Shown here in pieces: positions 6,082 through 59,548 of a stretch of 64,000 bases of DNA (position 1 is the stretch's first letter; every line of letters starts with the position of its first letter). The stretch covers positions 1 through 64,000 of the forward strand of contig NZ_JAATVY010000018.1 in NCBI RefSeq assembly GCF_011947195.1. Reading direction: 5' to 3'. The stretch comes from Planosporangium thailandense (GTDB taxonomy: Bacteria; Actinomycetota; Actinomycetes; Mycobacteriales; Micromonosporaceae). The position numbers were made by a program, and so were the translations under genes. The notes under the pieces were generated by a model that saw only the letters and a program-made list of their open reading frames with translations, was not told the DNA's origin and searched no databases.

Positions 6082-6108
6082 CGAGCCATCCTAGGCGCGG
6101 ACGTCCGG

Positions 6109-6978: not shown

Positions 6979-7211
6979 GTCGCCAGCCCTCCTCGGAGAT
7001 AAGGAGAGCTGACCGTATCGCCTGACGAGACCAAGACGAGACGGCATAGGGGCGAGATGTTCGGGATGAGACAAAGCCGGTAATGCGGCGAGACAGGCCG
7101 ATACGACAGTCTTGGGCCATCTCCGCACGGTCCACCGGTGTCCGCCCGCTCGAGTATCGAGTGCCAGATTTCCGACCGCCCGTTTACCCCGTTATCTGCC
7201 GGAGCCAGACC

Positions 7212-12905: not shown

Positions 12906-12985
12906 GCGAGCGAAGCGAGCGAATCATCAGACTCAGCGCGTGTGAGCCTCATGCCGCCGCCGAGCGCAGCGAGGTGGCGGCATGA
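12902..12985 (+). CDS. 27-codon mini-ORF linking xylG and xylH
   Basis: The ATG at 12902 overlaps the xylG TGA, and its own TGA at 12983-12985 overlaps the xylH ATG, giving ATGA junctions at both ends. The product starts MSERSERIIRLSACEPH. It is built from the repetitive GAGCGAGCGAAGCGAGCG element and uses AGA and CGA codons unlike its neighbours. It likely has no protein role; ribosomes crossing it would open the hairpin over the xylH start. It could also be plain inserted repeat DNA. Confidence 0.5.
   Translation: MSERSERIIRLSACEPHAAAERSEVAA
12950..12984 (+). promoter_or_regulatory. Hairpin enclosing the xylH start codon
   Basis: The arms 12950-12961 and 12973-12984 form 12 pairs (one G-U) around an 11-base loop. 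The 3' arm GGTGGCGGCATG includes the xylH ATG, so initiation should be blocked unless a ribosome from upstream melts the stem. Confidence 0.6.
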
Positions 12986-43925: not shown

Positions 43926-44924
43926 TCACGGGGTCGGTGGCCCCACCTGGACCTTGCGGCCGACGCCGGCCCGGAACTGCGCGAGGGCGTCGGCGTACGC
44001 CTCGAGCGGGAACCGGTGGCTGATGAAGACCTCGGGCCGCAACACGCCGCCGACGAACAGCTCGCCGGCCCGCTCGTAGCTGTGCAGCACCGCCATCGAG
44101 CCCGTAATCGTGATCTCCTGGTTATAGATCTTGTACGGCTCGACGGTCACCCGCGCTCCGTAGTCGGCCACGCCAAACTGCAGGAACGTGCCGCCCCGGC
44201 CGACACGCCGCAGCCCGTCGGAGATGGCCGCCTCGACGCCAGTGCAGTCGATGACGACGTCCCAGCCGCGCGGCGCCTCCAGTTCGTCGGCGCTCGTCAC
44301 CGCGGCGGTGCAGCCCAGCAGCTTCGCCGTCGCCAGCCGCTCCGGGTTGAGGTCGACCATCGACACGCTGGCCGCCCCCGCCCGCTTCGCCAGCTCCATC
44401 ATCATCAGGCCCATCGTGCCGGAGCCGTAGATGAGGTAGTGGTCGGCCATCCGGCGCGGCAGCACGTCGAAGCCGCGTACCGCGCACGACAGCGGCTCGA
44501 TGAGCGCCGCGTCGGCGACGGCGACCCCGGCCGGCAGCCGGTAGCAGTTCTTCACCGGCGCGAGCGCGTACTCGGCGGCGCCGCCCGGCACGCTGATGCC
44601 GATGCCGCCCCAGTTCTCGCACAGGTTGCCGCGGGCCCGGCGGCAGTAGTAACACTCTCCGCAGTGCAGCGACGGGTCGACGGCGACCGCGTCGCCGACG
44701 CGCACCTCGGTGACGTCGGCGCCCACCTCGACGACCTCACCCGCGAACTCGTGGCCGGGCACGATCGGGTACGCGGGCGCGAACTCGCCGTCCATGATGT
44801 GCAGGTCGGTGCCGCAGATCCCGCAGCCGGCGACGCGGACGACCACGTCCCGTGGGCCGGGCGTCGGATCCGGAACGGTCTGGATCTCGATTAGACCGGG
44901 CTCGACGATGACGGCTGCTTTCAT
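43926..44924 (-). CDS. Zinc-dependent polyol/sugar alcohol dehydrogenase
   Basis: A 332-residue medium-chain dehydrogenase that probably oxidises an imported sugar alcohol with NAD. The catalytic zinc site is GCGICGTDLHI with PGHEFAGEV. The structural zinc site has four cysteines in HCGECYYCRRARGNLC, and the NAD fold shows IYGSGTMGLMMMELAKRAGA. The ATG at 44924 overlaps the stop of the upstream permease as ATGA. Being the last gene of a polyol importer operon points to sorbitol, mannitol, xylitol or arabitol. Confidence 0.92.
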   Translation of the reverse strand: MKAAVIVEPGLIEIQTVPDPTPGPRDVVVRVAGCGICGTDLHIMDGEFAPAYPIVPGHEFAGEVVEVGADVTEVRVGDAVAVDPSLHCGECYYCRRARGNLCENWGGIGISVPGGAAEYALAPVKNCYRLPAGVAVADAALIEPLSCAVRGFDVLPRRMADHYLIYGSGTMGLMMMELAKRAGAASVSMVDLNPERLATAKLLGCTAAVTSADELEAPRGWDVVIDCTGVEAAISDGLRRVGRGGTFLQFGVADYGARVTVEPYKIYNQEITITGSMAVLHSYERAGELFVGGVLRPEVFISHRFPLEAYADALAQFRAGVGRKVQVGPPTP

Positions 44925-45724
44925 TTGACGGCTCCCATTGACAGTCCGCGTACCAGCTTGTTCTGCGCCAGCCAGCCGGCCAGCAGCACGGGGAGGGACA
45001 CCAGCGTCGCGGCGGCGCACAGCCGGGCGAGGAACAGCCCCTCCGAGGAGATGAACCCGACCAGGAAGATCGGCGCCGTACCGGATCGGGTGGCGGTCAG
45101 GTTGACGGCGAAGAAGAACTCGTTCCAGGCGAAGATGAAGCAGATCAACGCCGTGGCGGCGATTCCGGGCGACACGATCGGCCCGATCACCTTGCGGATC
45201 GTCAGTCCGAGCCCGGCGCCGTCGACCGCGGCCGCCTCGACGACCGAGCGCGGCACCTCCAACAGGAACGAGCGCATCATCCACACCGCGAGCGGCAGGT
45301 TCATCGCGGTGTAGAGGATGACCATCGTCCAGATGTTGTCGAGCATCCCCAACTGCTTGACCACGAGATAGATCGGCAGCAGCGCGGCGACGGCCGGCAG
45401 CATCTTCGTGGAGATGAAGAAGAACAGGGCGTCGCGCCACTTGCCGACCGGCCGCATCGACAGCGCGTACGCCGCCGGCGTGGCCAGCACCAGCACCAGC
45501 AGCGTGGAGAACCCGCTGGCCATCAGTGAGTTCAGCAGGTACGGCGTGACGTTGCGGCCGAAGATCTGCCGGTACTGGTCCAGCGTCGGGTGGAACAGCC
45601 AGGCCGGCGGGTTGCTCGCCGCGTCCTGCTCCCGCTTGAACCCGGTCAGCACCATCCACAGCACCGGGAAGACGAAGACGATGCCGACCGCCCACGCGGT
45701 GACCGTCCAGGCCGCCTTTCTCAT
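44921..45724 (-). CDS. Polyol ABC transporter permease (SmoG/MalG type)
   Basis: One of two membrane subunits of the CUT1 importer, 267 residues with six hydrophobic segments. The EAA loop that docks on the ATPase reads EAAAVDGAGLGLTIRKVIGPIVSPG. The ATG at 45724 overlaps the stop of the first permease and the gene's own stop overlaps the dehydrogenase. No ATPase gene lies in the cluster, so a shared MsiK-type ATPase elsewhere is expected. Confidence 0.93.
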   Translation of the reverse strand: MRKAAWTVTAWAVGIVFVFPVLWMVLTGFKREQDAASNPPAWLFHPTLDQYRQIFGRNVTPYLLNSLMASGFSTLLVLVLATPAAYALSMRPVGKWRDALFFFISTKMLPAVAALLPIYLVVKQLGMLDNIWTMVILYTAMNLPLAVWMMRSFLLEVPRSVVEAAAVDGAGLGLTIRKVIGPIVSPGIAATALICFIFAWNEFFFAVNLTATRSGTAPIFLVGFISSEGLFLARLCAAATLVSLPVLLAGWLAQNKLVRGLSMGAVK

Positions 45725-46656
45725 CGCCCCTCCTCCATCCGGAACAGGCTGGAGATGACCCGCAGCGCGAACGTGGCCACGACGATCGTGCCGATGACCA
45801 CCACGACCCCGGCCGCGGCCGCCTCGCCGTACTCGAACTTGCGGAACGTGGTCAGGTAGATCTCGTACGGCAGGTTGGTCGTCGCCGTACCCGGGCCACC
45901 CTGGGTGATGGTGAAGACCGCGTCGAACGTCTGCACCAGGTAGATCGAGCCGAGCAGGGCGCCCAGCTCCAGGTACTGCCGCAGGTGCGGCAGCGTCATG
46001 TGGGTGAAGACCTGCCGCGCCGACGCGCCGTCCACCCGGGCCGCCTCGAGGACCTCCTCGCTCTGGCTCTGCAGCCCGGCCAGCAGGATCAGCATCATGA
46101 ACGGGGTCCACTGCCAGACGAGGGTCGCCACCACGGCCACCATCGGGTAGCTGGACACCCAGTCGGTATGCCCACCCAGCAGGCCATTGATCAGACCGTA
46201 CGCCGGGTTGTAGATGGCGTGCTTCCACAGCAGCGCCGCGGCCATCGGCATCACCAGGAACGGCGTGATGAGCAGCGTCCGCACGACGCTCCGGCCGGGG
46301 AACCTGCGGTCGAGCAGGACAGCCAGGCCGAGGCCGAGGAGCAGTGACACGAGTACCGCGCCGGCCGTCAGCACGATCGTGTTGACCAGCGCGGCGCGCA
46401 GCCGCGCGTCGGTGAGGACGCTGGCATAGTTGGCGAGACCCACGAAGTGGCGCTCGCCGGGACGCAGCGCGTTCCAGCCGAGCGTGGACAGATAGAGCGT
46501 GACGAGGAACGGCACCTGCGTCACGATGATCGCGAAAATCAGTGCCGGCAGCAGCGGCAGCCGGCGTGCCCAGCGGTCCCGCGCGTCGGCGCGCTTCGGT
46601 TGCGTCACCGCGCGGGCACCGGCCGGCGCGGCGCCGGTGGCAATCGCCTGAGTCAC
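45721..46656 (-). CDS. Polyol ABC transporter permease (SmoF/MalF type)
   Basis: Second CUT1 membrane subunit, 311 residues with six hydrophobic segments after a basic N-terminus. EAA loop: EAARVDGASARQVFTHMTLPHLRQ. The substrate-facing half has FDAVFTITQGGPGTATTNLPYEIY. GTG 46656 has GGGAGG ten bases upstream, spaced from the binding-protein gene by 61 bases. Confidence 0.93.
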   Translation of the reverse strand: MTQAIATGAAPAGARAVTQPKRADARDRWARRLPLLPALIFAIIVTQVPFLVTLYLSTLGWNALRPGERHFVGLANYASVLTDARLRAALVNTIVLTAGAVLVSLLLGLGLAVLLDRRFPGRSVVRTLLITPFLVMPMAAALLWKHAIYNPAYGLINGLLGGHTDWVSSYPMVAVVATLVWQWTPFMMLILLAGLQSQSEEVLEAARVDGASARQVFTHMTLPHLRQYLELGALLGSIYLVQTFDAVFTITQGGPGTATTNLPYEIYLTTFRKFEYGEAAAAGVVVVIGTIVVATFALRVISSLFRMEEGR

Positions 46657-46717
46657 GTACCCGGCCCTCCCATCCGGTGGTGGGGCGCGCCACCGTGCGG
46701 CGGCGCGCCCACTGCCC

Positions 46718-48097
46718 TTATTTCCGGTACTTCTTCGCGACGTCCTCGGCCAGCTTCTGGCCGTTGGCGAGGGCCTGGTCGACCGGTGTTCCGTTCGCGA
46801 TGCACGCGGCGACGTCCTGGGACACCTTCGTACCGAGGTCGGCGAACTCCGGGATGTCGACGAACTGCACGCCGACCGTCGGCCGCGGCTGCACGCCGGG
46901 GTTGACCGGATCAGCCTCCTCGATGGCCTTGAGCGTGACGTCGGAGAACGCCTTGGCCGAGTCCGTGTACTGCGGGATGTCGTACGTGGACTTCCGCTTG
47001 CCGGCCGGCACCCGCGACCAGCCCAGCTTCTCGCCGACCAGCTTCTCGTAGTCCTTGCTCGTCGCCCAGGAGATGAACTTCCAGGCGGCGTCGGCCTTCT
47101 TGGTGGTCTTGGGCATCGCCCAGGCCCACGCCCACAGCCAGCCCGAGGACTTGGTCTTCACGACCGGGGCGTACACGTAGCCGACCTTGCCGGCGACCTT
47201 GCTCGCGTTGGGGTCCTCGAGGGTACCGGCGGCCGAGGTGGCGTCGTACCACATCGCGGCCTTGCCCTGGCCGAAGGTGTTGAGGCACTCGGTGAACCCG
47301 GCCTGCGATGCGCCGGACTCCCCGTGCTGGCGGATCAGGTCGACGTAGAACTTCACCGCGTCGGTGAACTCCGGCGCGTTGACCTTCGGGGTCCAGTCCT
47401 TGTCGAACCAGGTGCCACCGAAGGTGTTGACCACCGTGGTGAGCGGGGCGAACATCTCGCCCCAGCCGGGCAGGCCGCGCAGGCAGATGCCCGCGACGCC
47501 GGCCGTCTTGTCCTCGGCCTTGGCGGCCAGGTCCGCCACCTGCTGCCAGGTGGGCCGCTCCGGCATCGTCAGGCCCTTCGCGGCGAAGATGTCCTTGTTG
47601 TACATGAGGAACGACGACTCGCCGTAGAACGGAGCGGCGTACATCTTGCCGTCCTCGCCCGACAGTGACTTCACCATCGGATCGAGCAGGTCGCCCTTGT
47701 CGTAACCGCTGTCGGAGTCGGCGTAGCTGGACAGCTCGTGCAGCCAGCCGTTCTTGGCCCAGATCGGCACCTCGTACGCGCCGATCGTCGCCACGTCGTA
47801 CTGCCCGCCCTGGGTGGCGACGTCCTGGGTCACCTTGTCGCGCAGTTCGTTCTCGGGCAGGATCGTGAACTTCACCGTGATGCCGGTCTGCTTGGTGAAG
47901 TTGTCGGCCGTGAGCTTGGCGATGTCTTCCATCTGCGGGTTGCCGACCATCAGCGCTGTGATGGTCTTGTCGCTACCGCTGCCCGAACCGGTATCGCCGG
48001 CGCCCGAGCAGCCACTGAGCGCGAGGGCGACCGTGGCCGCGCCGGCCAGGAACGCTAAGGCGGGCGCGGAGCGCCTTCTTCTCCCCATTTTTCGCAC
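46718..48097 (-). CDS. Polyol ABC transporter substrate-binding lipoprotein (SmoE type)
   Basis: Extracellular binding lipoprotein of 459 residues. The basic start MRKMGRRRRSAP is followed by a hydrophobic core and lipobox ALSGC, then a Gly/Ser linker and the type 1 binding fold (ITALMVGNPQMEDIAKL, MYAAPFYGESSFLMYNKDIF, AAMWYDATSAAGTLEDP). The GTG at 48097 has GGAGG six bases upstream. First structural gene of the operon; the DeoR regulator lies 86 bases upstream on the same strand. Binding-pocket residues do not let me choose between sorbitol, mannitol and xylitol. Confidence 0.92.
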   Translation of the reverse strand: MRKMGRRRRSAPALAFLAGAATVALALSGCSGAGDTGSGSGSDKTITALMVGNPQMEDIAKLTADNFTKQTGITVKFTILPENELRDKVTQDVATQGGQYDVATIGAYEVPIWAKNGWLHELSSYADSDSGYDKGDLLDPMVKSLSGEDGKMYAAPFYGESSFLMYNKDIFAAKGLTMPERPTWQQVADLAAKAEDKTAGVAGICLRGLPGWGEMFAPLTTVVNTFGGTWFDKDWTPKVNAPEFTDAVKFYVDLIRQHGESGASQAGFTECLNTFGQGKAAMWYDATSAAGTLEDPNASKVAGKVGYVYAPVVKTKSSGWLWAWAWAMPKTTKKADAAWKFISWATSKDYEKLVGEKLGWSRVPAGKRKSTYDIPQYTDSAKAFSDVTLKAIEEADPVNPGVQPRPTVGVQFVDIPEFADLGTKVSQDVAACIANGTPVDQALANGQKLAEDVAKKYRK

Positions 48098-48183
48098 AGC
48101 AGACCTCCACGTGGGGGTGTTGGAACGGTGGTGGGTGTGAACGATGAGCGGACTGGTGGTGTCGCCCGGTCAGCCGGGCGCGG

Positions 48184-48945
48184 TCATACCCGGATCACGT
48201 TGGGTCCGAGAAGCGAATAGCGGTGCGCCTCCAGAGCGGGCAGCGCGGAGTCGGTCACGATCGTGTCGAAGTCGGTGACCTCCGCGAACCGGCAGAAGGT
48301 GCTCACCCCGAACTTGGTGTGGACGCCGGCGAACACCCGGCGGCGGGCGACCCGGACGACCTGCGACTTCACGTCCGCCACCGCCGGGTCGGGGGTGGTC
48401 AGTCCGTGTTCCCGGGAGATTCCGTTGGCGCCGACGTACGCCAGGTCGATGACGAAGCCGGCCAACATCCTGGTGGCCCAGTGATCAACGGTGGCGAGGG
48501 TGCGGCCGCGTACCCGCCCGCCGAGGAGGAGCACGGTGTTGGAGGTCGAGGTCGACAGCGTCGCTGCCGTGCTCAGCGACGCCGTGACCACCGTCAACTG
48601 CCGGTCGGTCGGCAGCGCCTCGGCGATCAACTGCGGCGTGAACCCCTCGTCGATGAAGACCGTCTCGGCGTCCCCGAGCAGTTCGGCGGCTGCCGCGGCG
48701 ATCCGCCGCTTCTCGGGTACCTGACGCGTGGTCCGCATGGCGAGGGTCGTCTCGAACCTGGCGGTCTCCACCGGGTACGCGCCGCCGTGGGTGCGCCGGA
48801 CCAGCCCGTGCTTTTCCAGCACGCGCAGATCACGCCGGATGGTCTCCGGCGCCACCGCCAGGTCGGCGGCGAGCTTGGCCACGTCGACGGCGCCGTCCCG
48901 GCGGGCCTGGCTCAGGATCCGGTGCTGTCGCTCCTCCGTGTTCAC
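48184..48945 (-). CDS. DeoR-family regulator of the polyol operon
   Basis: A 253-residue repressor. The helix-turn-helix spans VDVAKLAADLAVAPETIRRDLRVLEKHGLVRRTHGGA, the classic DeoR signature. The C-terminal sugar-phosphate isomerase-like domain has VFIDEGFTPQLIAEAL and TVVTASLSTAATLS. It heads the polyol operon, so the effector is probably a phosphorylated sugar from that path. A short inverted repeat ATGT-cta-ACAT lies 53 bases upstream. Confidence 0.92.
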   Translation of the reverse strand: MNTEERQHRILSQARRDGAVDVAKLAADLAVAPETIRRDLRVLEKHGLVRRTHGGAYPVETARFETTLAMRTTRQVPEKRRIAAAAAELLGDAETVFIDEGFTPQLIAEALPTDRQLTVVTASLSTAATLSTSTSNTVLLLGGRVRGRTLATVDHWATRMLAGFVIDLAYVGANGISREHGLTTPDPAVADVKSQVVRVARRRVFAGVHTKFGVSTFCRFAEVTDFDTIVTDSALPALEAHRYSLLGPNVIRV

Positions 48946-49451
48946 CCCGCACCTCCCTCCGGCGCCGCGCCGTCATCCGGCGTTGATCGGTGACCAAATG
49001 TCTAACATCTGTACGACGATGTGAGTGGGCTCACAGGGAGATCATCCTCGCCTGCTTTTGCCCGTTCGGACAGTCCGCGGTGAGGGCTCGAATCGCCACA
49101 ATGCGGGCAACACGACATGAACCGCATGCCCGATCGGGCACGCCTCGCGCCCGGTTAGCGCCCGGTTCTCCCGTGTGGGCGAATGGAGGGCCACGCGACA
49201 ACGGGGCACCCCGCGTGATGGTCACGGGCGGGGACGACCACACGGGACGATCGGTGATCGCCTTGCCACCGACACACCGCACTCAATCCCGCGTTTGCCG
49301 TGCTCAGCTTGGTAACGTGCGGCCAATCCTGGGCCGTATCCCCTCCGTGGCGCAGGGCTGACAACGGAAACGCCCAACGTCTGCTCGCTCGGGAACGACG
49401 TCCCGTCGGCGGGAAGCCGCGCGTACGTGCCCGAACTTACGGAGGCGATCC
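48946..49451. promoter_or_regulatory. Divergent region between DeoR and the DivIVA-like gene
   Basis: 506 bases with no credible gene; a 123-codon open frame inside lacks typical coding composition. ATGT-cta-ACAT at 48998-49008 is a possible DeoR site. A run of A/T-bearing sequence at 48985-49030 probably holds the DeoR promoter. I see nothing else. Confidence 0.5.
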
Positions 49452-50159
49452 GTGACAGACAACCGGATCAAGGATGGTGTCACAGCGATGTTCAACGGAA
49501 GGGTGACTCCGGACATCACCGTCCTGGAGCCTCCACGGGTCGCGCTGGAGCCCGGCCACCCGAACCAGGCCGTTCAAGTGCTGGCCATGGCGCAGCGCAC
49601 GGCTGACGAGTATGTCCAGAACGCGCAGCGGCGCGCGGACAACATCCGCGCGGATGCGCTGGCGGCCGCCGAGCAGATCGTCCACGACGCCGAGGTGCAC
49701 GCTGACAAATTGCGGCATGAGGCGGACAAGGTGCTCGGCGCGGCGCGCGAGGCCGCCGAGCAAACGGCGCGGGAGGCCCGGGCGCGCGTGGAGGAGTCGC
49801 AGCGGGACTCCGACACCATCGTGGCGAAGGCACGGGCGCAGGCGGCGACGATAGCGGCCAAGGCGGAGGAGTACGCGCTGGAGCTGAAGCAGCAGGCCCA
49901 GCGGCGCTACGACGACGTCGTGGGCAGCCTGGCCTTCAGGCGCGAGGCCCTGCAGCAGCAGATCGAGGCTCTGGAGCGGTTCGACCGCGAGTACCGGGCT
50001 CGGCTGACGGCGTTCATGCAGGGTCAGTTGCGCGCCCTCTGGGTCGACCAGCCCCAGGTAACCGGTGAGTTCGACTCTCCTCGCGCGGAGATGTCGGACA
50101 GGTCCGTGGTACGGGACCAGCCGGCGCCCGAAACGTCGACCGCGTCCGGATCCGTGTGA
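49452..50159 (+). CDS. DivIVA-like coiled-coil protein
   Basis: A 235-residue, mostly helical cytoplasmic protein. Residues 40-200 form a continuous Ala/Glu/Arg-rich coiled coil (QRRADNIRADALAAAEQIVHD), as in DivIVA/Wag31-type scaffold proteins of polar growth. The N-terminal DivIVA membrane-binding motif is not clear, so it is a relative rather than Wag31 itself. GTG 49452 has GGAGG six bases upstream. A 12-bp terminator hairpin follows. It is a lone gene. Confidence 0.75.
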   Translation: MTDNRIKDGVTAMFNGRVTPDITVLEPPRVALEPGHPNQAVQVLAMAQRTADEYVQNAQRRADNIRADALAAAEQIVHDAEVHADKLRHEADKVLGAAREAAEQTAREARARVEESQRDSDTIVAKARAQAATIAAKAEEYALELKQQAQRRYDDVVGSLAFRREALQQQIEALERFDREYRARLTAFMQGQLRALWVDQPQVTGEFDSPRAEMSDRSVVRDQPAPETSTASGSV

Positions 50160-50191
50160 CGCCAGGGCCGGGAGCCCCGCAACGGCCGCCC

Positions 50192-50228
50192 TACACGTCG
50201 CGGAGACCTGCTGTCCCCGCGACGTGTA
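50192..50228 (+). terminator. 12-bp hairpin terminator after the coiled-coil gene
   Basis: TACACGTCGCGG (50192-50203) and CCGCGACGTGTA (50217-50228) are exact complements around 13 bases. It lies 33 bases past the stop codon. The next 130 bases to the convergent gene hold nothing I recognise. Confidence 0.8.
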
Positions 50229-50359
50229 AGGCTCCAGCGCCCCCGCCACTTGCCGGGCCGCGCACAGCTGCGTCTGAGCACGGCAGCACGGTGCGGTGGT
50301 GGGTATACATGCCGATGAACGTGCGGATCGGCGGCATTCTGGGAGTGGCGGGTCGCCGT

Positions 50360-50950
50360 TCAGGTTTGGGCTATGGGGCGACCGACCGTGAGCGCATCGC
50401 GGATCGTTGGGTCCAGGGAGTGGAAGGCGGCGTCGGGCTCGGCGCCCACCGCGTCGAGCACGCTGCTGAAGAAGCAGCGGGCCGCTGCGGCGAGGATGAC
50501 GTCGAGGATGTCCCCGTCGTCCACACCGAGGTCGCGGAGTTCGGCAAGGTCGTTCTCGGTCATGTGGGCCGCTCCGGCGGCCACCTTGTCCGCCAGCGCC
50601 ATGACCGCCCGATCAACCGGTGCCAATGTGGCCGCAGCGGGTGCGGTGACGATGGTCGAGACGGCTGCCGGACCGTCGAACTGCTCGGCGAGCACCTTGC
50701 CGTGGGCGAGTGAGCAGTAGCTCGACCGCAGCCGGAGTGCCGCTGCGACGGTGGCCAACTCGTAACGGCGCGGATCCATCGACGCCTTGATTGCGCCATT
50801 GAGGGCGCGCCACGCCTCCAGCACCGCCGGTCGGTTGGCGAAGACCCGCGTGTAGTTGGCGACGTAGCCGAGAGTTTCCCGGTCGCGGTCGTAAACAGCC
50901 GCCACTTCTCCGGTGGCACCATCGTCGGGCGGCGTCCGAATCCAGCTCAT
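50360..50950 (-). CDS. AhpD/carboxymuconolactone decarboxylase-like protein
   Basis: A 196-residue all-helical protein of the AhpD-like (CMD) superfamily. The active-site region reads SSYCSLAHGKVLAE, giving Cys-x3-His but only one cysteine in place of the CxxC of AhpD, so a peroxidase-linked role with a single thiol is likely. ATG 50950 begins MSWIRTPPDD, the standard opening of peroxidase-related members. It is a lone gene convergent with the coiled-coil gene. Confidence 0.85.
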   Translation of the reverse strand: MSWIRTPPDDGATGEVAAVYDRDRETLGYVANYTRVFANRPAVLEAWRALNGAIKASMDPRRYELATVAAALRLRSSYCSLAHGKVLAEQFDGPAAVSTIVTAPAAATLAPVDRAVMALADKVAAGAAHMTENDLAELRDLGVDDGDILDVILAAAARCFFSSVLDAVGAEPDAAFHSLDPTIRDALTVGRPIAQT

Positions 50951-51142
50951 CCGCCGACCATAGACCCGAACCGCGACCGCGAGAAGGCGCCAGCCGCGCC
51001 GGTGTCGGTGCAGGCCAAGCGGGCAATGGTCCCTGCGACTCCACACCGACCGATTTGTACCCACTAACTCATCTCGCTGCCGCACTCAACTGCGCCGGTG
51101 TGAGCGACGAGGTGTCACGGCGGTCAACGGCGCACGGCATCG

Positions 51143-51388
51143 TCATCGCTCGCACCTTTCCGATGGACGGGACAGCCAGCCGAGAAATCGGTTATGCAGC
51201 GTCCCGGCCGGCGCGTCGTGCAGGTCGTCGGCTGCCTCGACGACGTAGGACGACATGAGCAGTGACAGGGAGGCCGGGGCGCGGTCGTACTCGGCAATCA
51301 ATTGACGCCGCCGGCTGAGGCACGGCCAGGACTGGTAACAAACGGCACAAGCCCAGCTCGGACGTAGCGGTACGTGCAGTGTCGTCAT
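51143..51388 (-). CDS. Small CxxCxxxWPC protein
   Basis: An 81-residue protein starting MTTLHVPLRPSWACAVC. It carries the motif WACAVCYQSWPCLSRRRQL, a likely zinc knuckle, then helices (LSLLMSSYVVEAADDLHD) and a closing RFLGWLSRP. Such small proteins are common beside regulators in actinomycetes; some are wrongly named flavin reductase. AGGAG lies seven bases before the ATG at 51388, which overlaps the previous stop as ATGA. It shares C-x2-C-x3-W-P-C with the protein at 7487. Confidence 0.75.
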   Translation of the reverse strand: MTTLHVPLRPSWACAVCYQSWPCLSRRRQLIAEYDRAPASLSLLMSSYVVEAADDLHDAPAGTLHNRFLGWLSRPSERCER

Positions 51389-51540
51389 GGGAGGCTCCTG
51401 CCCTGGCCGCATCCGGCGGGGCACCGGAGTGTCGCGCCGCATATGACGCACCAGCAACGTGACTGGCGGTACGTGACGAGCCCGGCAAGAAAGCCAACCG
51501 CTAACGCGGCGATGATCCCTGCGATCAAGCCATAACCCAT
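51385..51540 (-). CDS. 51-aa membrane protein with Cys-rich tail
   Basis: It begins MGYGLIAGIIAALAVGFLAG, one membrane helix with the N-terminus probably outside. A cytoplasmic tail CWCVICGATLRCPAGC follows, with five cysteines as two CxxC-like pairs, fit for a zinc ribbon. GAGG lies six bases before the ATG. It is coupled by ATGA overlap to the CxxCxxxWPC gene, so the two products may meet at the membrane. No family recognised. Confidence 0.65.
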   Translation of the reverse strand: MGYGLIAGIIAALAVGFLAGLVTYRQSRCWCVICGATLRCPAGCGQGRSLP

Positions 51541-51906
51541 GTTTCGCCTCAGCCCTTGATCCCCGCGATCGACTCGGTCACCACAGTGGCGACGCTCTAT
51601 CTCCACTGCGGCGACGCTCTGCAACGATGTTGCGATTACGACACGAGCTCGAATGGCACTGATGCCATAGCTGCACCAGCGATCGGTACCCCTACCGCCG
51701 TGGACCGTCACCCGCGATGCGCCGACGACACCCGCTCCCCGGTCTCCAGCGGTAGCTCCTTGCGACCTGTACAGGACCGTATGTCGATGCCATCTAGGTC
51801 CTCAAGTCCTCTATAGGACTTGAGTTTCAGATGACGCCATCGAATACCGGTACGGTGTTCAACACGAGTAGTCCTTCATAGGACAGCGCCCAGGATGGGA
51901 CAGGCC
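51541..51906. promoter_or_regulatory. Divergent control region with three GTCCT-N4-AGGAC operators
   Basis: 366 gene-free bases. Operator O1 (51801-51824) has 10-base arms CTCAAGTCCT and AGGACTTGAG around ctat. O2 (51871-51884) is GTCCT-tcat-AGGAC, 22 bases before the regulator ATG. O3 (51764-51777) is GACCT-gtac-AGGAC. The centres are 42 and 65 bases apart. This is the form of a GntR-type autoregulated promoter able to loop. Confidence 0.8.
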
Positions 51907-52692
51907 ATGAGTGACGACCTCGGTGCCAAGGCACCCAAGTACCTGCAGATCGCGGCGCAACTCCGCCGTGACATCGGCGACGGCAAGTTCAAGCCCGACA
52001 ACCGTCTCCCTGCCGAGACTGCCCTCGCCGAGCGCTTCCGGGTCAGCCCAATTACGTTGCGGAGCGCCATGGCGGTACTGCGAGCCGAGGGCCTGATCGA
52101 GTCGCGGCACGGGGTCGGTACGTTCGTCCGCGAAAGCCGGCGGTTGCAGCGCAGGTCACGCGATCGTTACGGCCGCGCCCGCAAAGACCATCAGCTCCTC
52201 ACCTCGCACCTTCGACACGAGATCGTGTTCGCCGGAAGGGCGTCCCTTCCGGCGGAGATCGCCGCAGTCATGGATCTTGAATCCGGCACCGAGGTGGTCG
52301 TCCGACGCCGTCACCTTTACAGCAAGGAAACCGGCCGGCCCGAGGAGATCGGCGCAAGCTACATCCCGCTGGAGATCGCTGGTGGCACGTTCCTCGAAGA
52401 GCCGACCGTCGTGCCCAAGGGCCTGTTCCTGTGCATCGAGGAGCTGAGCGGCAAGCGATACACCACCGCACGCGATCACTGGGTCGCACGCCTACCGACG
52501 GCCGAAGAGGCCGCCGCCCTCGAACTCCCGACAGGCGCACCGGTTATGCATGTCATCCACGCGGCTCGCGCCGAGGACGGCAGCATCCTCGAAGTCTCAG
52601 AATCAGTGTGGCCGGCCGACCGGATCATGGTCATCGACGACTACGAGGTCGAGTCGACCGCAACGGAGCCCGCAGCACCGTCCGAGGTCTGA
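51907..52692 (+). CDS. GntR-family (HutC/UTRA) regulator
   Basis: A 261-residue regulator. Winged helix: YLQIAAQLRRDIGDGKFKPDNRLPAETALAERFRVSPITLRSAMAVLRAEGLIE. The UTRA ligand domain spans about 90-250 and ends VWPADRIMVIDDYEV. ATG 51907 begins MSDDLGAKAPKY; an in-frame ATG at 51895 is possible. Three matching palindromes upstream point to autoregulation and control of the divergent small-protein genes. It is 16 bases from the 2H phosphoesterase gene and surely co-transcribed. Ligand unknown. Confidence 0.92.
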   Translation: MSDDLGAKAPKYLQIAAQLRRDIGDGKFKPDNRLPAETALAERFRVSPITLRSAMAVLRAEGLIESRHGVGTFVRESRRLQRRSRDRYGRARKDHQLLTSHLRHEIVFAGRASLPAEIAAVMDLESGTEVVVRRRHLYSKETGRPEEIGASYIPLEIAGGTFLEEPTVVPKGLFLCIEELSGKRYTTARDHWVARLPTAEEAAALELPTGAPVMHVIHAARAEDGSILEVSESVWPADRIMVIDDYEVESTATEPAAPSEV

Positions 52693-52708
52693 CTTGGAGG
52701 AACCGACA

Positions 52709-53356
52709 ATGTCACTCGTCGACCTGGCACCCGGACAACACGCCAGCCGGGTACGTGACCACTGGTGGTGGCGGCCCGGCTGGCGCATCGGTCGCCGCTT
52801 CTACGCCTTCCACGTCACCTTCGAAGAACAACCCGACCTGTACCGGCTCGCCGACAACTACCGGGTCGGCCTGGCCGCCATGCCAGCGCTAACGCTGATC
52901 CCCGACCAGTGGCTACACCTGACCATGCAGGGCATCGGCTTCACAGACCAGGTCAGCGATGCGACTGTTACGGCGATCGTCGACGAAGCACGCGACATCC
53001 TCGCAGACGTTCCGGAGTTCGAGGTCGAATTCGGCGAGGTCATCGTCACCGACGAGGCCATCGTCATGCCCGCCGAGCCGGCCGCGCCGGTCCGTCACCT
53101 GCGCGCCGCCGTCCGCGGTGCGATCGGCAGGGTTTTCGGTGAGGACCAGGTCCCCGAGAACGCGGACCGGTTCCGGCCGCACGTCAGCGTCGCCTACCTC
53201 ACCGCCGACGGCCCGGCAGCGCCGTACGTCGAGGCGCTCCAAGCCGCCAAACTTGAGCCTGCGCGTGTCCGAATCAGCCATATCGACCTGATCGAGATGC
53301 ACCGCGACCGGTATATGTACGAGTGGACGGTTCTCGCCCGACTCCCCCTCAGCTAA
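52709..53356 (+). CDS. 2'-5' RNA ligase-like 2H phosphoesterase
   Basis: A 215-residue protein with the two H-x-T/S motifs of the 2H phosphoesterase fold: HLTMQGIGF and RPHVSVAYL. Family members open or close 2',5' or cyclic phosphates on RNA or nucleotides. A Trp-rich start (DHWWWRPGWRIGRRFYAFHV) precedes the fold. The ATG at 52709 has GGAGG eight bases upstream. The link to a GntR regulator suggests a small nucleotide or RNA-end substrate controlled by that regulator, but this is inference. Confidence 0.85.
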   Translation: MSLVDLAPGQHASRVRDHWWWRPGWRIGRRFYAFHVTFEEQPDLYRLADNYRVGLAAMPALTLIPDQWLHLTMQGIGFTDQVSDATVTAIVDEARDILADVPEFEVEFGEVIVTDEAIVMPAEPAAPVRHLRAAVRGAIGRVFGEDQVPENADRFRPHVSVAYLTADGPAAPYVEALQAAKLEPARVRISHIDLIEMHRDRYMYEWTVLARLPLS

Positions 53357-53477
53357 GCGATTTCGAGATTGGACTGCCGCACCAAGCACCGAGGCGATTG
53401 AAGACCAGATGCCTCCGGTGCCGGCTTCAGCTCGGGAGAGGCGCCTTCCGCCGCCGTCTCCGGGCATGGAGCTTCGA

Positions 53478-54878
53478 TCAGCGGCCGTACATCGCGACCC
53501 TCGCGGCGGCGTACGCCCCACGGATCCGCTCCCCCGCCTCCGCATCACCGCTCTCCCCGACCTCGGTACCCTCCCGGGAGGCGTCCCAGTGCGGGGGCTC
53601 GGCGGCCCCGGCGAGGGCCCAGGCCGCCTGCCTGGCCGCGCCCAGCGCGACGTACTCGCCGGGCTCGGGTACGACGACCGGCGCGCCCAGCACGGTCGGG
53701 GCGATCGCACGTACCGCCCGCGAGCGCGCGGCGCCGCCGATGAGCAGGATGCGCCGCGCCCGCACCCCGAGGTCCTGGAGCGCGGCCAGCCCGTCGGCCA
53801 GCCCACAGAGCATGCCCTCGACGGCGGCGCGCGCGAGGTTCTCCGGCGTCATGTTGGTGCGGCGCAGCCCGGCGAGGGTACCGGTGGCGTCGGGCAGGTT
53901 GGGGGTGCGCTCCCCCTCCAGGTACGGCAGCAGCACCAGGCCCTCGGCGCCGGGCGGCGCGTCGAGGGCGAGCCGGTCGAGGCCGGCCAGGTCGGTGCCG
54001 AGCAGCCGCGCCGCGGCGCCGAGCACGCGGGCGGCGTTGAGCGTGCACACGAGCGGCAGGTACCGGCCGGTGGCGTCGGCGAACCCGGCGACGGTGCCGG
54101 ACGGGTCGGCGACGGGATGCGAGTGCACGGCGAACACCGTGCCGCTCGTACCCAGCGATACCACCACATCCCCGGCCCGGGCGTCGAGGCCGAGCGCCGC
54201 GGCCATGTTGTCGCCGGTACCGGCCGACACGAGCACCCCGGAGCGGGTCTCGCCGGCCGCCTCCCAGGGCGGGAGCACCCGGGGCAGCCGGGGCCCCCGG
54301 CCGAACGCACGTTCCACGATGTCCGAGCGGTACTCGCCGGTGGCCGGCGACCAGTAGCCGGTGCCGGAGGCGTCGCCCCGGTCGGTCACGGGTGACCCTT
54401 CACGACCGAGCAACTGCCAGGTCAGCCAGTCGTGGGGCAGCATGACGTCGCTGACCCGCTGCGCGTGGTGCGGTTCGTGCTCGGCGAGCCAGCGCAGCTT
54501 GGTGACGGTGAAGCTCGCGACCGGCACCGAGCCGACGGCGTCCGCCCAGGCGGCCGGCCCGCCGAGGTCGCGGACGAGATCCTCGGCGGCCACGGCCGAC
54601 CGGGTGTCGTTCCACAGCAGGGCCGGCCGGACGACCTCGCCGGTCTCGTCCACGGCGACGAGCCCGTGCTGCTGGGCGCCGACGCCGATCGCCGTGACGC
54701 CGTCGAGCAGGCCGCCGGCGGACGCCGCTTCGAGCGCGGACCACCAGGCGGACGGGTGGACCTCGGTGCCGTCCGGATGCGCGGCGCTGGCCTCGGCGAG
54801 CACCGTGCCCGTCTCGGCGTCGCAGACCACGATCTTCGTCGACTGGGTGGAGGAGTCGATCCCGGCGACCTTCGTCAT
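53478..54878 (-). CDS. xylB: Xylulokinase
   Basis: Phosphorylates D-xylulose to xylulose 5-phosphate, the step after XylA. 466 residues of the FGGY kinase family. Key parts: [15 protein letters not shown] (phosphate loop), [14 protein letters not shown] and [15 protein letters not shown] in the first domain, [11 protein letters not shown], and the second-domain [14 protein letters not shown]. It is not beside xylA but next to a beta-glucosidase/ABC operon, separated by a long hairpin. Xylose genes are therefore split over two loci 43 kb apart. Confidence 0.94.
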
Positions 54879-54910
54879 GCCGACAGGCTAGTGCCCGGTC
54901 CGCTCACGAA

Positions 54911-54956
54911 ATCTTGGGGAGTTTGACATCGAATACGGTGTCAAAATCCCCAAGAT
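54911..54956. terminator. 18-base-arm inverted repeat between bgl operon and xylB
   Basis: Arms 54911-54928 and 54939-54956 pair with a single mismatch around 10 bases. The outer edge reads CAAGATCCGCG, the complement of the GCGGATCTTG core seen at 5583 and 21538. It lies just past the beta-glucosidase stop and should end that operon. Confidence 0.75.
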
Positions 54957-54967
54957 CCGCGAAGCGC

Positions 54968-56410
54968 TCAGCCCACGGGTACCCCACCACCCGCGATCAC
55001 GTCGCGGTACCAGCGCGCGCTGTCCTTGAGGGTGCGCCGCTGCGTGGCGTAGTCGACGTGCACGATACCGAACCGCTTCGAGTAGCCCCACGCCCACTCG
55101 AAGTTGTCCAGCAGCGACCAGACGAAGTACCCCCGCAGGTCCACGCCTTCGCGCAGCGCCTCGTGCGCCGCGGCCAGGTGCCCGCGCAGGTACTCCACCC
55201 GCTCCGGGTCGTGCACCTGCCCGGCCGGGTTCGGCTCGTCCGGGTAGGCCGCGCCGTTCTCGGTGATGACCAGCGGCACGTCGCCGTAGTCGCGGTGGAT
55301 CCGGCTGAGCAGCTCGCGCAGCCCGGTGGGGTCGACCGACCAGCCCATGTCGGTGAGCGGGCCCGGCGGCTGGAGGAACCGGACGTGCTCGCTGCCCGGC
55401 CAGGCCGACGGCGCGGGGACCGCGTCCGGCGAACCGACCGGCACCGGCCCGGGCGGCTCGCCGGCGCCGACGAGCATCGGCTGGTAGTAGTTGACGCCCA
55501 GCAGGTCGATCGGCCTGGCGATGGTGTCGAGGTCACCGTCGCGCACGAAGTCCCAGCCGGTCAGGTGGGAGGTGTCGGCCTGCACGTCCGCCGGGTACTG
55601 CCCGCGCAGCACCGGGTCGAGCCAGATCCGGTTCATCAGGCCGTCGATGCGCCGGGCGGCGTCGACGTCGTCGGCCGCGGCGCTGGCCGGCCGTACCGTG
55701 GTCGGATTGATCACGAACCCGACCTGGGCGTCGGCGGCGAGGCGCGAGGCGCGCAGGGCCTGTACGCCGAGACCGTGCGCCAGCAGCAGGTGGTGCGTCG
55801 CGGTCAGGGCCGCGACCGGATCGGTACGGCCGGGGGCGTGCTCGCCCGAGCCGTGCCCCAGCATCGCCGAGCACCACGGCTCGTTGAGCGTGGCCCACAC
55901 GCCGACCCGGTCACCGAGCCGGTCGGCGACCAGGCTCGCGTACTCGGCGAACCGGTACGCGGTGTCCCGGTTGGTCCAGCCACCGGCGTCCTCGAGTTCC
56001 TGCGGCAGGTCCCAGTGGTACAGCGTGAGCACCGGCCGGATCTGCGAGGCGAGCAGGTCGTCGACGAGCCGTTCGTAGAACGCCATGCCGGTGGGGTTGA
56101 CCGGACCGCTGCCGGCCGGCCGTACCCGCGGCCAGCTCACCGAGAACCGGTACGCGGAGAGCCCCAGCTCCCGCATGATCGCCACGTCCTCGACGACGCG
56201 GTGGTAGTGGTCGGCGGCCACCGCGCCGGTGTCGCCGTGCAGCACCTTGCCGGGGGTGGCCGAGAAGGTGTCCCAGATGGACGGGGTACGCCCGCCCTCG
56301 GTCGCGGCGCCCTCGATCTGGTACGCCGCGGTCGCCGCTCCCCACATGAACTCCGGTGGGAACCGCAGCCTGCCCTCGGTGGCCGCCTCCGTCTTCAACG
56401 AGGAAGTCAC
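54968..56410 (-). CDS. GH1 beta-glucosidase (cytoplasmic)
   Basis: A 480-residue retaining beta-glucosidase that cleaves imported cellobiose-type sugars. Signature stretches: [21 protein letters not shown], acid/base Glu in TLNEPWC, nucleophile Glu in [12 protein letters not shown] and aglycone stretch [17 protein letters not shown]. No signal peptide. GTG 56410 overlaps the permease stop as GTGA, so it is the last gene of the importer operon, as bglC is in cebEFG-bglC of Streptomyces. Confidence 0.95.
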
Positions 56411-57267
56411 CCTTTCACCGCCCCCTGCATGATTCCTCCAAGGATCTGCCGGCCCATCAGCGCGAAGACCACCAGGATCGGCAGCGTCGAGACGAGAGCC
56501 CCGCAGAGCACCAGCGAATAATCCCGAACGTACCCACCCTGGAGCGCCGACAACGCCACCTGAACCGTGGGATTCTGCTGGGTCATCGCCACCAGCGGCC
56601 AGAAGAAGTCGTTCCAGGTGGCCATGAAGGTCAGCATGCCCAGTACGGCGGCTGCCGGCCGGGCGACCGGCAGCACGACGTGCCAGTACAGCCGCCAGGT
56701 GGAGCAGCCGTCGAGCCGGCCGGCCTCCAGCAGTTCGGTCGGCAGGGCGGTGGCCAGGTACTGGCGCATGAAGAACACGCCGAAGGCGCTGACCGCCGCC
56801 GGCGCGACGAGCGCCTGGAGGTGCCCGGCCCAGTGCAGCCAGTTGGCCATCATGATGTACAGCGGGATGATGCCCAGCTGCGGCGGCACCATCATCGTGG
56901 CCACGACGACGCCGAGCAGGGCACCCTTGCCGCGGAAACGCAGCTTCGCGAAGGCGAACCCGGCGAGCGTCGAGGTGAACACGACCGAGATCGTCACCAG
57001 GGTGGACACGACGAGCGAGTTGGTCAGGGCGAGCCGCATGTCGGTGCGGGTGAACACCGCCCGCAGATTGTCCAGCAGCCGGCTGCCGGGGACCAGCACG
57101 GGCGGCGTCCGGCTGATGTCGCCGGTGTCGTGGGACGCGGCGACGAGCGTCCAGTACAGCGGAAACATCGACAACAGCAGGACCACGCCGAGCACGGCGT
57201 AGGTTCCCCAGCCGGCGGACAGCTGGCTGTTGCGGCCACGGCGCCGGGGCGTCATCAACACCGTCAT
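56407..57267 (-). CDS. Sugar ABC transporter permease (CebG type)
   Basis: CUT1 permease of 286 residues with six segments. EAA loop: [24 protein letters not shown]. Both ends overlap neighbours (ATGA at the start, GTGA at the end). The product is one half of the membrane channel for an oligosaccharide, likely cellobiose or cellodextrins. Confidence 0.93.
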
Positions 57268-58226
57268 GATGCGTCAACCCCTCGCATCCGGCGGGCGGCG
57301 ACCAGGTTGACCGCGACGAACAGGGCGATGATGCCGAACATCGCCCACGAGATCGCGGCGCCGTACCCGTACTTGAACTTCTGCCAGAACTGGTCGTAGG
57401 TGTAGAGGGCGAGCGTCTGGAACTGGTGTTGGGAGCCTCCGGTTGTCGGCGTCTGACTGGTGTTGAACAGCAGTGGCTCGCCGAACAGTTGCAGCGAGCC
57501 GATCGTCGACACGATGACGGTGAACAGGATCGTCGGGCGCAGCATGGGTACGGTGATCGTCCGGAACTGTCTCCACCGGCTCGCGCCGTCGAGCGCGGCC
57601 GACTCGTACAGCTCGAACGGGATCGCCTGCATGCCGGCCAGGTAGATGAGCGCGTTGTAGCCGGTCCAGCGCCAGGTGACGATCACCGAGATGGCGATCC
57701 AGGACGTCCAGGTGCCGGCCTGCCAGTCGACGTGGTCGACCCCGACGAGGCCGAGCAGCCAGTTGACCATGCCGTAGTCGCGCCCGAACAGCTGGACGAA
57801 GATGATGGTGACGGCGGCGACCGACGTGACGTTGGGCAGCAGCACGCCCATCCGGATGAGCGTGCGGCCGCGGAGCTTGTAGTTGAGCAGGTGCGCGACT
57901 CCGAGCGCCAGCAGAAGCTGCGGCACGGTCGAGATGAGCCCGATGCCGATCGTGTTCTTGACGGCGTTCCAGAAGAAGGGGTCGTGCCAGAGGGCGACGT
58001 AGTTGCGCCAGCCCACGAACGCGCTTTCGCTGCCGGGTGTGTCGGCCCGCCAGCCGGTGAGCGAGACGTAGCCGGTGTACACGAGCGGGAACAGCCCGAA
58101 CACCCCGAACACGACGAAGAACGGCGCCACGAACGCGTACGGCGCGCCCTTGGTGTCGAGCCGGTACCGCCGGACCGGTAGGGCGGCGTGCGCGGCGGCG
58201 GGGCGGGGTCTGGTCATCACGGCCAT
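57264..58226 (-). CDS. Sugar ABC transporter permease (CebF type)
   Basis: CUT1 permease of 320 residues with six segments after a basic N-terminus. EAA loop: [25 protein letters not shown]. The motif [17 protein letters not shown] marks the substrate-facing region of oligosaccharide permeases. It starts at ATG 58226, 29 bases after the binding-protein stop. No ATPase gene is present; a shared MsiK-like ATPase must serve. Confidence 0.93.
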
Positions 58227-58255
58227 GGCGGGTCCGTCCTGGGTCGGGTCGCCGG

Positions 58256-59548
58256 TCAGGAGACGATGTTCCGGACGTCGGCGACGGCCTTCTTCCAGGC
58301 CGCGTCAGGGGTGGCGGTGCCCTGCTCGACGGTGGTGAGGGCGTTGCCGATGGCGTTGCCGATGTCGCCCTGGTGCGGGCCGAGGATCTGCGGCTTCAGG
58401 CTCTTCACCGACTCCGAGAAGATCTTTCCGGCGGGCGCGTTGTTGAAGAAGGGGTTGTCGTATCCGGCGACCTCCGGCTGGCTCCACAGCGCCTGGTCGG
58501 ACGGGAAGTTGCCCTTGTTGGTGAACAGCCACTTCTCCTGCTCGGGGGCGGTCAGCCACTTCGCGAGCTCGATGGCTTCCTTCTGGTGGCGGCTGGCCCT
58601 GGGCACCGTGAGGTAGGAGCCGCCCCAGTTGCCGCCACCGGTGCCGGGGATCCGGGCGATGTCCCACTTGCCCGCGGTGTCCGGAGCGTTGTCCTTGATG
58701 TAGGCCATCATCCAGGACGGGCAGGTGACGGTGGCGAACTGCCCCTTGGCGAAACCGGTGTTCCACTGCGGGCTGAACGCGGCGAGCCCGGCCGACTCGC
58801 CGGCCTGGATCGCGGCGACCGTGGTGTCCCACGCCTGCTTGACCGCCGGGTTGGTCTCGACGATGACCTTGCCGGAGGCGTCGTAGGCGTTCCGGGTGGA
58901 CTGGCCGATGATCGCGTTGTAGAGGTTGCTGCCGGCGTCGAACCATTTCACGTTCTTGTCCGGGCTCTTGGCCTGGAACTGCTTGCCGACCTCCACGTAC
59001 GAGTTCCAGTCGGTGAACAGCGCGGACACCGCGTCCCGATCGCTGGGCAGGCCGGCGGCCTTGAGCAGGTCGGAGCGGTAGCACAGGGCGAGCCCGCCCA
59101 CGTCGGTGCCGAGGCCGAAGAGCGCCTTGCCGTCCTGACTGGTCGCCGGCTGCCACTTGGAATCGACCCACTGGTCCTTGCGGACGCCCTGGCCGAGGAA
59201 GTCCACGAACTTCGCGGCCTGCGGCCGGAACCCGGCGATCTGCCCGATCTCGATGGCTTCGATGTCGGCGGTGCCGGCGCCGCTGAGCAGGTGGGCCTGC
59301 AGGTTCTTGTGGTGGGCGCCGTAGTCGGTCACGTTCTGCTTGACCGTGATGTTCGGGTGGCTCTCCTTGTACCTGGCGTACAGGTCCTGGTAGCCGAAGT
59401 CGCCGAACAGGTTGACGGTCAGGGTGACCGGGCCGTTGTCGCCGGCCGGTCCGTCCGAGCTGCTGCCACAGCCGGCGAGCAGTGAGCCCACCAGCATGGC
59501 GCCGACCCCGAACAGCAGGGCCGGTCGCCGGGTCATCGCGACGCGCAT
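58256..59548 (-). CDS. Sugar ABC transporter binding lipoprotein (CebE type)
   Basis: Captures an oligosaccharide outside the cell. 430 residues; MRVAMTRRPALLFGVGA, lipobox SLLAGC and a short Ser/Gly linker. The solute-binding fold has FGDFGYQDLYARYKESHP, LGTDVGGLALCYRSDLL and KGQFATVTCPSWMMAYIKD. The ATG at 59548 has GAGGAG six bases upstream. It heads the operon and faces the LacI regulator. The CebEFG-BglC order supports cellobiose; other beta-glucosides remain possible. Confidence 0.92.
   Translation of the reverse strand: MRVAMTRRPALLFGVGAMLVGSLLAGCGSSSDGPAGDNGPVTLTVNLFGDFGYQDLYARYKESHPNITVKQNVTDYGAHHKNLQAHLLSGAGTADIEAIEIGQIAGFRPQAAKFVDFLGQGVRKDQWVDSKWQPATSQDGKALFGLGTDVGGLALCYRSDLLKAAGLPSDRDAVSALFTDWNSYVEVGKQFQAKSPDKNVKWFDAGSNLYNAIIGQSTRNAYDASGKVIVETNPAVKQAWDTTVAAIQAGESAGLAAFSPQWNTGFAKGQFATVTCPSWMMAYIKDNAPDTAGKWDIARIPGTGGGNWGGSYLTVPRASRHQKEAIELAKWLTAPEQEKWLFTNKGNFPSDQALWSQPEVAGYDNPFFNNAPAGKIFSESVKSLKPQILGPHQGDIGNAIGNALTTVEQGTATPDAAWKKAVADVRNIVS

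Follow-up and report, generated by a model that had tools for sequence, protein, structure and literature searches.

A GntR regulator and 2H phosphoesterase cassette in Planosporangium thailandense: a probable orphaned control module of pSAM2-type integrative and conjugative elements

We studied a stretch of 64,000 nucleotides from Planosporangium thailandense, a member of the Micromonosporaceae (assembly GCF_011947195.1, contig NZ_JAATVY010000018.1, positions 1 to 64,000); the whole stretch is referred to as the window. It contains a cassette of four genes arranged around one promoter region, with a GntR-type regulator and a 2H phosphoesterase on one side and two small proteins, TM51 and WPC81, on the other. 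The coordinates given in a first-pass annotation of this DNA were correct, and the genes are as described there:

51895..52692, plus strand: GntR/HutC-type regulator with a UTRA effector domain, in the position of KorSA in actinomycete integrative and conjugative elements (AICEs); probable start at 51907
52709..53356, plus strand: 2H phosphoesterase (PF13563/LigT), 215 aa, second gene of the presumed operon
51385..51540, minus strand: TM51, a 51-aa one-helix membrane protein with a CxxC motif (helix judged by eye)
51143..51388, minus strand: WPC81, an 81-aa CxxCxxxWPC small protein (CAVCYQSWPC) of an unmodelled Micromonosporaceae family

The regulator joins an N-terminal GntR winged helix (PF00392, E 5e-19, 68.1 bits with a cut-off of 27) to a C-terminal UTRA domain (PF07702, E 3e-18, 66.5 bits with a cut-off of 23.8), the domain pair of the HutC/UTRA subfamily. 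Its AlphaFold2 model (pLDDT 75.7) had YvoA, DasR and PhnF as fold matches, and the alignments of several relatives begin at the second ATG, 51907. The downstream protein matches PF13563 (E 1e-21) and LigT_PEase (E 3e-6) and has the motifs H70-L-T72 and H158-V-S160; its AlphaFold2 model (pLDDT 94.3) was matched by Foldseek to TT0787, PH0099 and E. coli LigT with E values from 5e-9 to 1.2e-8. Two HxT/S motifs in a predicted 2H fold make it a member of the 2H phosphoesterase superfamily. Residues H70, T72 and H158 are invariant in all 81 aligned rows, and position 160 is Ser in 68 rows and Thr in 13. The fold and the two HxT/S motifs are shared with E. coli LigT; however, the identity is 16-18% (Foldseek), the protein has an N-terminal HWWWRPGW, and its score to the RNA 2',3'-cyclic phosphodiesterase equivalog TIGR02258 is 19.5 bits, under the cut-off of 65.7. 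The HWWWRPGW motif is kept across the 81 rows but for one W-to-Y change, a conservation that is partly built in because one of the search patterns was that motif.

On the opposite strand the stop of TM51 and the start of WPC81 overlap in ATGA, with GAGG and AGGAG preceding the two starts; TM51 and WPC81 are a translationally coupled divergent pair. The coordinates and this overlap bear out what had been proposed, a single divergent promoter region with operators together with a coupled pair of small proteins. The elements of the promoter region are listed below:

51871..51884: operator O1, GntR-proximal, exact GTCCT-N4-AGGAC, GTCCTTCATAGGAC, 3' of the predicted GntR -10 box
51801..51824: operator O2, a 24-nt palindrome, CTCAAGTCCTCTATAGGACTTGAG, containing the exact site GTCCTCTATAGGAC at 51806-51819
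51764..51777: operator O3, GACCTGTACAGGAC, with one mismatch to the palindrome; it overlaps the -10 box predicted for the divergent promoter
51851..51856, plus strand: TACGGT, the -10 box predicted by eye for the GntR-2H promoter; TACnGT in 7 of 7 aligned copies
51776..51781, minus strand: TACGGT, the -10 box predicted by eye for the divergent promoter; directed toward TM51/WPC81 here and toward pra in AICEs

The first-pass annotation counted three GTCCT-N4-AGGAC palindromes. Three sites are indeed present, but only two are exact, the third having one mismatch. Within 250 bp we observed three sites with at most one mismatch compared to a mean of 0.01 in shuffled sequences, and none of 200 shuffles reached three. 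Exact sites in the window are confined to the cassette promoter. A loose pattern (two mismatches) was not enriched over the 64-kb window (16 vs 31.5), and neither was the exact pattern genome-wide (6 sites vs 5 for the reversed control); the operator signal therefore resides in the local clustering of sites and in their conservation.

To see this conservation we used relatives of the 2H protein, collected by six peptide patterns, of which the best 80 of 155 were analysed; their genes were called by our own codon-usage caller, which missed some genes, WPC81 included. An orthologous GntR gene, 56-85% identical, stands directly upstream of the 2H gene in 14 of the 80 loci; the hosts are Micromonospora, Streptomyces, Nonomuraea, Kribbella, Goodfellowiella and one metagenome-assembled genome. 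In the upstream 250 bp of these 14 pairs we found 18 exact operator sites (0.005 expected) and 30 sites with at most one mismatch (0.275 expected), with at least one of the latter in every pair. The remainder of the 14 loci (132 kb) had no exact and three one-mismatch sites, and 130 kb of DNA upstream of the 66 other 2H genes had no exact and two one-mismatch sites. The expectation that the operators belong with this GntR thus holds, with exact sites upstream of its relatives and none upstream of the other 2H genes. An alignment of seven Micromonosporaceae copies shows O1 and O3 in all seven and O2 in five, O3 being kept as GACCT-N4-AGGAC in the Micromonosporaceae relatives. By eye, a TACnGT box lies 5' of O1 in all seven copies, and an opposite-strand TAC(G/A)GT box overlaps O3 in six; the seventh (locus L197) has TATAGT. 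The layout of operators and predicted boxes fits repression of both promoters.

Searches from the GntR side gave the same pairing. Among 300 genomes of the family, where the best 8 candidates per genome were scored, 10 had a match; 6 matches were strong (own genome included), one copy per genome, and all six are followed by the 2H gene. Among 396 genomes of the phylum the own genome was the sole match. Directly upstream of the 80 2H genes we observed an XRE-like gene in 50 loci (within 75 bp in 45), the GntR ortholog in 14, another GntR in 3 and other genes in 13, so that a GntR or XRE-like gene stands just upstream in 67. The XRE-like name is weakly supported, by HTH_31 in 8 of 26 members scanned and TPR models in up to 6 (41 of 47 members of the cluster passed the length filter and 26 were aligned). 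A pair of an XRE-like, TPR-containing regulator and a 2H gene is common among the Streptomyces loci. The position of 2H behind interchangeable regulators is the best argument for a regulatory job of the 2H protein. Matches to 2H were found in 35 plasmid records and in no phage; for the GntR ortholog, nine plasmid records matched at E 1e-15, the best with only 36% identity. A PADLOC defence system was rejected, as the four cassette proteins had no match to PADLOC-DB models up to E 0.01.

The surroundings of the relatives point to AICEs. Ten AICE query proteins were taken from loci L005, L007, L013, L018, L024 and L040, where matches are self-hits; matches in L074, L083 and L194, as well as RepSA and integrase in L195, are independent. 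In L018 the regulator lies beside genes of the SCO3933/Pra family (135.8 bits, cut-off 80), FtsK/SpoIIIE (109 bits, cut-off 24) and RepSA (827.7 bits, cut-off 700). L040 has a Pra-like gene with 63.7 bits, below the cut-off of 80, and an FtsK-like gene, and L074 and L083 resemble it; L024 has an integrase. A second Pra-like type is found in L005, L007 and L013, with TraB-like genes in L005 and L013. In L194 and L195 (the latter is the contig of L005) the 2H-GntR pair faces a Pra-like gene, which in L194 is of this second type, and both have TraB-like, RepSA (above the Pfam cut-off) and integrase genes; judged by these matches, they carry the whole AICE core gene set. In total, AICE genes accompany 9 of 16 distinct relatives (the 14 together with L194 and L197), while the AICE queries found nothing in the 66 other 2H loci. 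As far as such a comparison of loci reaches, GntR-2H with its predicted operators is a module heading pSAM2-type AICEs in the relatives, facing a Pra-like activator gene.

Not all relatives have this setting. No AICE genes were found in the DNA examined at L006, L008, L063 and L197, where L063 is a contig of 10.8 kb, 3.9 kb of it on the divergent side, and the only trace in L197 is a weak integrase-like match (E 2.5e-5). The AICE queries had no match in L027, L044 and L068, which were counted neither as orphans nor as AICE copies. At L007 the divergent-side flank examined was 1 kb. A tRNA attachment site was rejected: of 17 loci scanned only L044 has a tRNA, and the window has none.

The closest known systems are KorSA of pSAM2 and SCO3932. 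According to the available excerpts of PMC8584621, these are GntR-HutC regulators with a UTRA domain and with sites in their own and in the divergent promoter, and SCO3932/SCO3933 have the same divergent layout as the relatives' GntR and Pra-family or Pra-like gene. In the window, conserved predicted operators likewise lie in both promoters, and in L018 the regulator has FtsK/TraB-type and RepSA genes as neighbours. On the other hand, the motif given in those excerpts for SCO3932, AC[TC]T[AG]TT[GC][TG][GT]ACG, differs from GTCCT-N4-AGGAC, and the GntR gene here is followed by 2H and, in the window, is an orphan. Excerpts of PMC3218068 and PMC3364876 describe AICEs that pair a regulator with a small Nudix hydrolase (Pif and the reg-nud and mdp-nud-xre clusters), Pif giving conjugal immunity (PMC3218068). 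The likeness is that of a regulator with a small hydrolase in AICEs; the difference is 2H in place of Nudix, no Nudix match being found among the cassette proteins. Among the matches listed, no open-licence paper linked 2H or RNA ligase to AICE, pSAM2, KorSA or GntR by title or abstract.

In the window itself no integrase, Xis, RepSA-type or other replication gene, or FtsK/TraB gene was found; the ten AICE queries, with no Xis among them, gave no match below E 0.05. Remnants of pra were looked for in the window and rejected, with only chance-level matches among the matches listed. A RepSA match is missing from the own genome; 8 of 10 tested genomes carry between 1 and 5. The RepSA search is backed by its positive genomes; the Pra family search gave no match in any control genome.

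Comparison by blastn to locus L177 of a sister genome, G003, showed that window positions 44087-49069 and 53475-54898 nearly abut there, with about 160 bp replacing 4.4 kb:

49070..53474: stretch missing from the sister genome G003, with DivIVA-like, peroxidase-related, WPC81/TM51 and GntR-2H genes

The other two sister genomes have different genes at that position and do not date the event. This GntR is absent from all three sister species, where the search found only one that is 39% identical. The stretch also encodes a DivIVA/Wag31-like coiled-coil protein (window 49452-50159) and a carboxymuconolactone decarboxylase/peroxidase-related protein (window 50360-50956, at the TIGR01926 cut-off). 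A common DivIVA link was rejected, since the DivIVA-like protein found no match at E 1e-4 in 120 loci, L006 and L008 included.

In a tree of GntR and 2H the orphans sit in four places, interleaved with AICE copies: the window; L006 with L008, beside the AICE-borne L005 (100/99); L197, beside L013/L194 (99/99); and L063, beside L074 (100/98). Either there were four orphaning events, or copies have shuttled both ways. The dN/dS values were 0.02-0.14 for GntR (9 finite of 10 pairs) and 0.10-0.36 for 2H (10 pairs), with dS near saturation in several pairs; for the orphan pair L006-L008 they were 0.065 and 0.26, respectively. By this measure the orphan copies are under purifying selection. O1, O3 and the divergent box are retained in the window, L006, L008 and L197; O2 is lost in L006 and L008. 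Such retention suggests a control switch kept by the host for its own use. One orphan locus, L196 of Micromonospora sp. MW-13, has a CRISPR-like array at 3879-7619, 0.9 kb 3' of the 2H gene, in which a repeat of about 37 nt occurs 47 times with a period of about 74 nt; its spacers had only 16-21 nt matches to the loci examined, none convincing.

The divergent side of the window cassette belongs to a family of its own. Neither WPC81 nor TM51 matched a Pfam model up to E 1, and their NCBIfam matches (E 0.16 and 0.027) were at chance level, far under the cut-offs; of 25 WPC members none was in NCBIfam and one had a weak Pfam match (DUF6629, E 0.007). Of 61 genomes searched, 23 had WPC matches, 161 in total (median 4, up to 21), and every one of these genomes belongs to the 37 of the family; the own genome has seven matches to WPC81; of the 396 phylum genomes two matched, both Micromonosporaceae. 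Cys14, Cys17, Trp21, Pro22 and Cys23 are invariant in 41 sequences. WPC is an unmodelled Micromonosporaceae family, separate from the GntR-2H cassette and much larger. A plasmid- or phage-borne nature of WPC was rejected, as neither plasmids nor phages gave a match. Short matches similar to TM51 were seen near WPC in L131, L138 and L139 (E 8e-3, 2e-6 and 2e-10), among the matches listed.

WPC neighbourhoods were inspected in 40 loci, mostly high-scoring, drawn from the 161 matches in 23 genomes. A divergent gene was obtained in 37 of them, and all 37 were scanned; of 39 downstream controls 38 were scanned (L158, 1-3990, dropped). The divergent neighbours included GntR in 11 loci, HTH_31 in 9 and DUF5753 in 9 (overlapping), so that a GntR or XRE regulator faces WPC in at least 20 of 37. 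Downstream, DUF5753 was found once and GntR and HTH_31 at most once each among the matches listed, figures that rest on the best 25 of 81 families. Since regulators stand on the divergent side and rarely downstream, WPC operons are regulator-facing modules of their own. Across L130-L169, these operons encode small C-x(1-2)-C...PC proteins divergent from GntR or XRE/DUF5753 regulators. An open reading frame with a Cys-Pro-Cys-like motif lies directly upstream of WPC in 18 of the 40 loci; these are mechanical reading frames chosen by pattern, with no chance control. The Streptomyces XRE/DUF397 pairs described in the available excerpts of PMC10364602 are similar in having a many-copy small protein beside a regulator, and WPC operons often face XRE-DUF5753; however, no WPC member matches DUF397, and WPC is divergent rather than downstream. 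In genome G018, WPC genes stand beside integrase genes (L159; L160, 2901-7468), and L160 has RepSA, TraB-like, Xis-like and Nudix genes near WPC (Xis and Nudix named by eye).

A WPC operon faces the orphan GntR-2H pair in three of four orphan lineages (the window, L006/L008 and L063, not L197) and in none of the four Micromonosporaceae AICE copies. The WPC proteins of L006/L008 and L063 are 34-43% identical to WPC81 and are located behind other small reading frames. For a given gene the chance of a WPC gene within 1.3 kb is about 0.003 (post hoc arithmetic from 14 WPC genes per 7 Mb in genome G006). The first-pass annotation was to be given up if its neighbourhood did not recur in other genomes; the GntR-2H part does recur, while WPC proteins accompany only some orphan copies.

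Taken together, the cassette is very probably an orphaned copy of a pSAM2-type AICE control module, of KorSA type with 2H replacing Nudix, and is apparently kept in use. A GntR-UTRA dimer would bind the three operators and repress its own operon and, as KorSA does with pra, the divergent promoter; from the operator layout, we consider this divergent repression reasonably likely. GntR would be released by a small effector that binds UTRA, the likeliest candidate being a nucleotide, whether plain, cyclic or 2'-phosphorylated, and the co-transcribed 2H enzyme would destroy the effector or its precursor and reset the switch. Such turnover by 2H is a tentative proposal. The output of the orphan would be the TM51/WPC81 pair, and an AICE that enters the cell with the same operators could be silenced by the orphan repressor as well. 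For the orphaned module with this repression and effector mechanism, as a whole the best explanation, we estimate a probability of roughly 0.65.

Several observations weigh against this explanation. With no AICE gene in the window, AICE control by this copy is inferred only from its relatives, and the GntR gene here is neither encoded in an AICE nor placed beside or divergent from pra. The likeness to KorSA is drawn from gene position and family. No NCBIfam or Pfam model matched the Pra-like genes of L005, L007 and L013, and L007 was counted as an AICE on its Pra-like gene alone. A weaker GntR class (about 40% identity) occurs in four family genomes, and 2H was absent in the three examined. 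L063 does not have the O3 layout, and in the window about 235 bp separate the TM51 start from the -10 box predicted on the divergent side. Finally, the orphan-bearing genomes G288, G309 and G244 have 2 to 4 RepSA matches.

These RepSA matches also bear on a related idea, namely that the orphan is kept as an immunity device that silences incoming AICEs with the same operators, like Pif in pSAM2. The window GntR is 82-85% identical to those of the AICE-borne L005, L013 and L194, with matching operators; there is a single strong copy in each of six genomes; the own genome has no RepSA match while most tested genomes do; and Pif, a Nudix protein giving pSAM2 immunity, is a precedent (PMC3218068, available excerpts). 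Still, because genomes with orphans carry several RepSA matches, the orphan is no general AICE barrier, and any immunity would be limited to elements that carry these operators. Moreover, G003 is without the orphan and also without a RepSA match (this genome is 86% complete), and the excerpts on Pif give its mechanism as unknown. We regard immunity as the reason for its retention as rather unlikely. A decaying remnant of AICE excision or deletion, functionless and with WPC neighbours by chance, would agree with the missing AICE genes, the weaker constraint on 2H than on GntR, the loss of O2 in L006 and L008, and the weak integrase-like match that L197 retains. But both frames are open, dN/dS is low even between two orphans, O1 and O3 are retained in four of five orphan copies (L063 is outside the alignment), and the WPC operon faces orphans and not AICE copies, at a chance of about 0.003 per locus; decay is thus improbable.

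The reading of the first-pass annotation, a signalling or RNA/nucleotide-repair unit, was not supported as it stood; we took it to mean that 2H would open RNA ends with 2',3'-cyclic phosphates while GntR would sense damage. The 2H fold and both catalytic motifs are intact, and 2H enzymes open 2',3'-cyclic phosphates (PMC9503650, available excerpts). About 3 kb from the orphan pair of L196, on its divergent side, is a Macro-domain gene (PF01661, E 4e-23, 12635-12961), and a link to ADP-ribose or RNA ends is possible there. However, the 15 window proteins scanned with Pfam (44924-59548; the four cassette proteins, two more encoded in the insertion and nine of sugar transport and metabolism) included no repair partner, a scan of the window and not of the other relatives' neighbours; the TIGR02258 cut-off was missed, and AICE genes neighbour 9 of 16 relatives. 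We rejected the repair unit and give it very little credence. Even less credible is an ordinary metabolic GntR regulating the adjoining carbohydrate kinase and sugar transport genes. The neighbours are sugar genes, and the best fold matches, DasR and YvoA, contain sugar phosphates in their crystal structures; nevertheless, the 4.4-kb stretch is absent from G003, where the sugar genes nearly abut, exact sites in the window occur only at the cassette promoter, and the relatives have other neighbours. A chromosomal sugar regulator was rejected on the absence in G003.

The orphaned control module may also belong to something broader, although we hold the following propositions jointly as doubtful. 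They describe a one-component switch of a new class, whose regulator, GntR-UTRA or XRE-TPR, would be interchangeable and co-transcribed with a 2H enzyme destroying the regulator's own nucleotide effector. AICEs would gate transfer with this switch in place of Nudix, hosts would have captured it repeatedly, and captured copies would have been re-targeted to WPC membrane/cysteine proteins, perhaps silencing incoming elements.

The effector of KorSA is described as unknown in the available excerpts of PMC8584621, and the immunity mechanism of Pif likewise in those of PMC3218068. With an enzyme beside the repressor, defined operators and a plausible substrate class, the cyclic or 2'-phosphorylated nucleotides, the effector question becomes testable. 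The orphans in four lineages, with operators kept, offer a natural experiment on how the switch of a mobile element is domesticated, and the WPC family of the Micromonosporaceae merits a name and a function.

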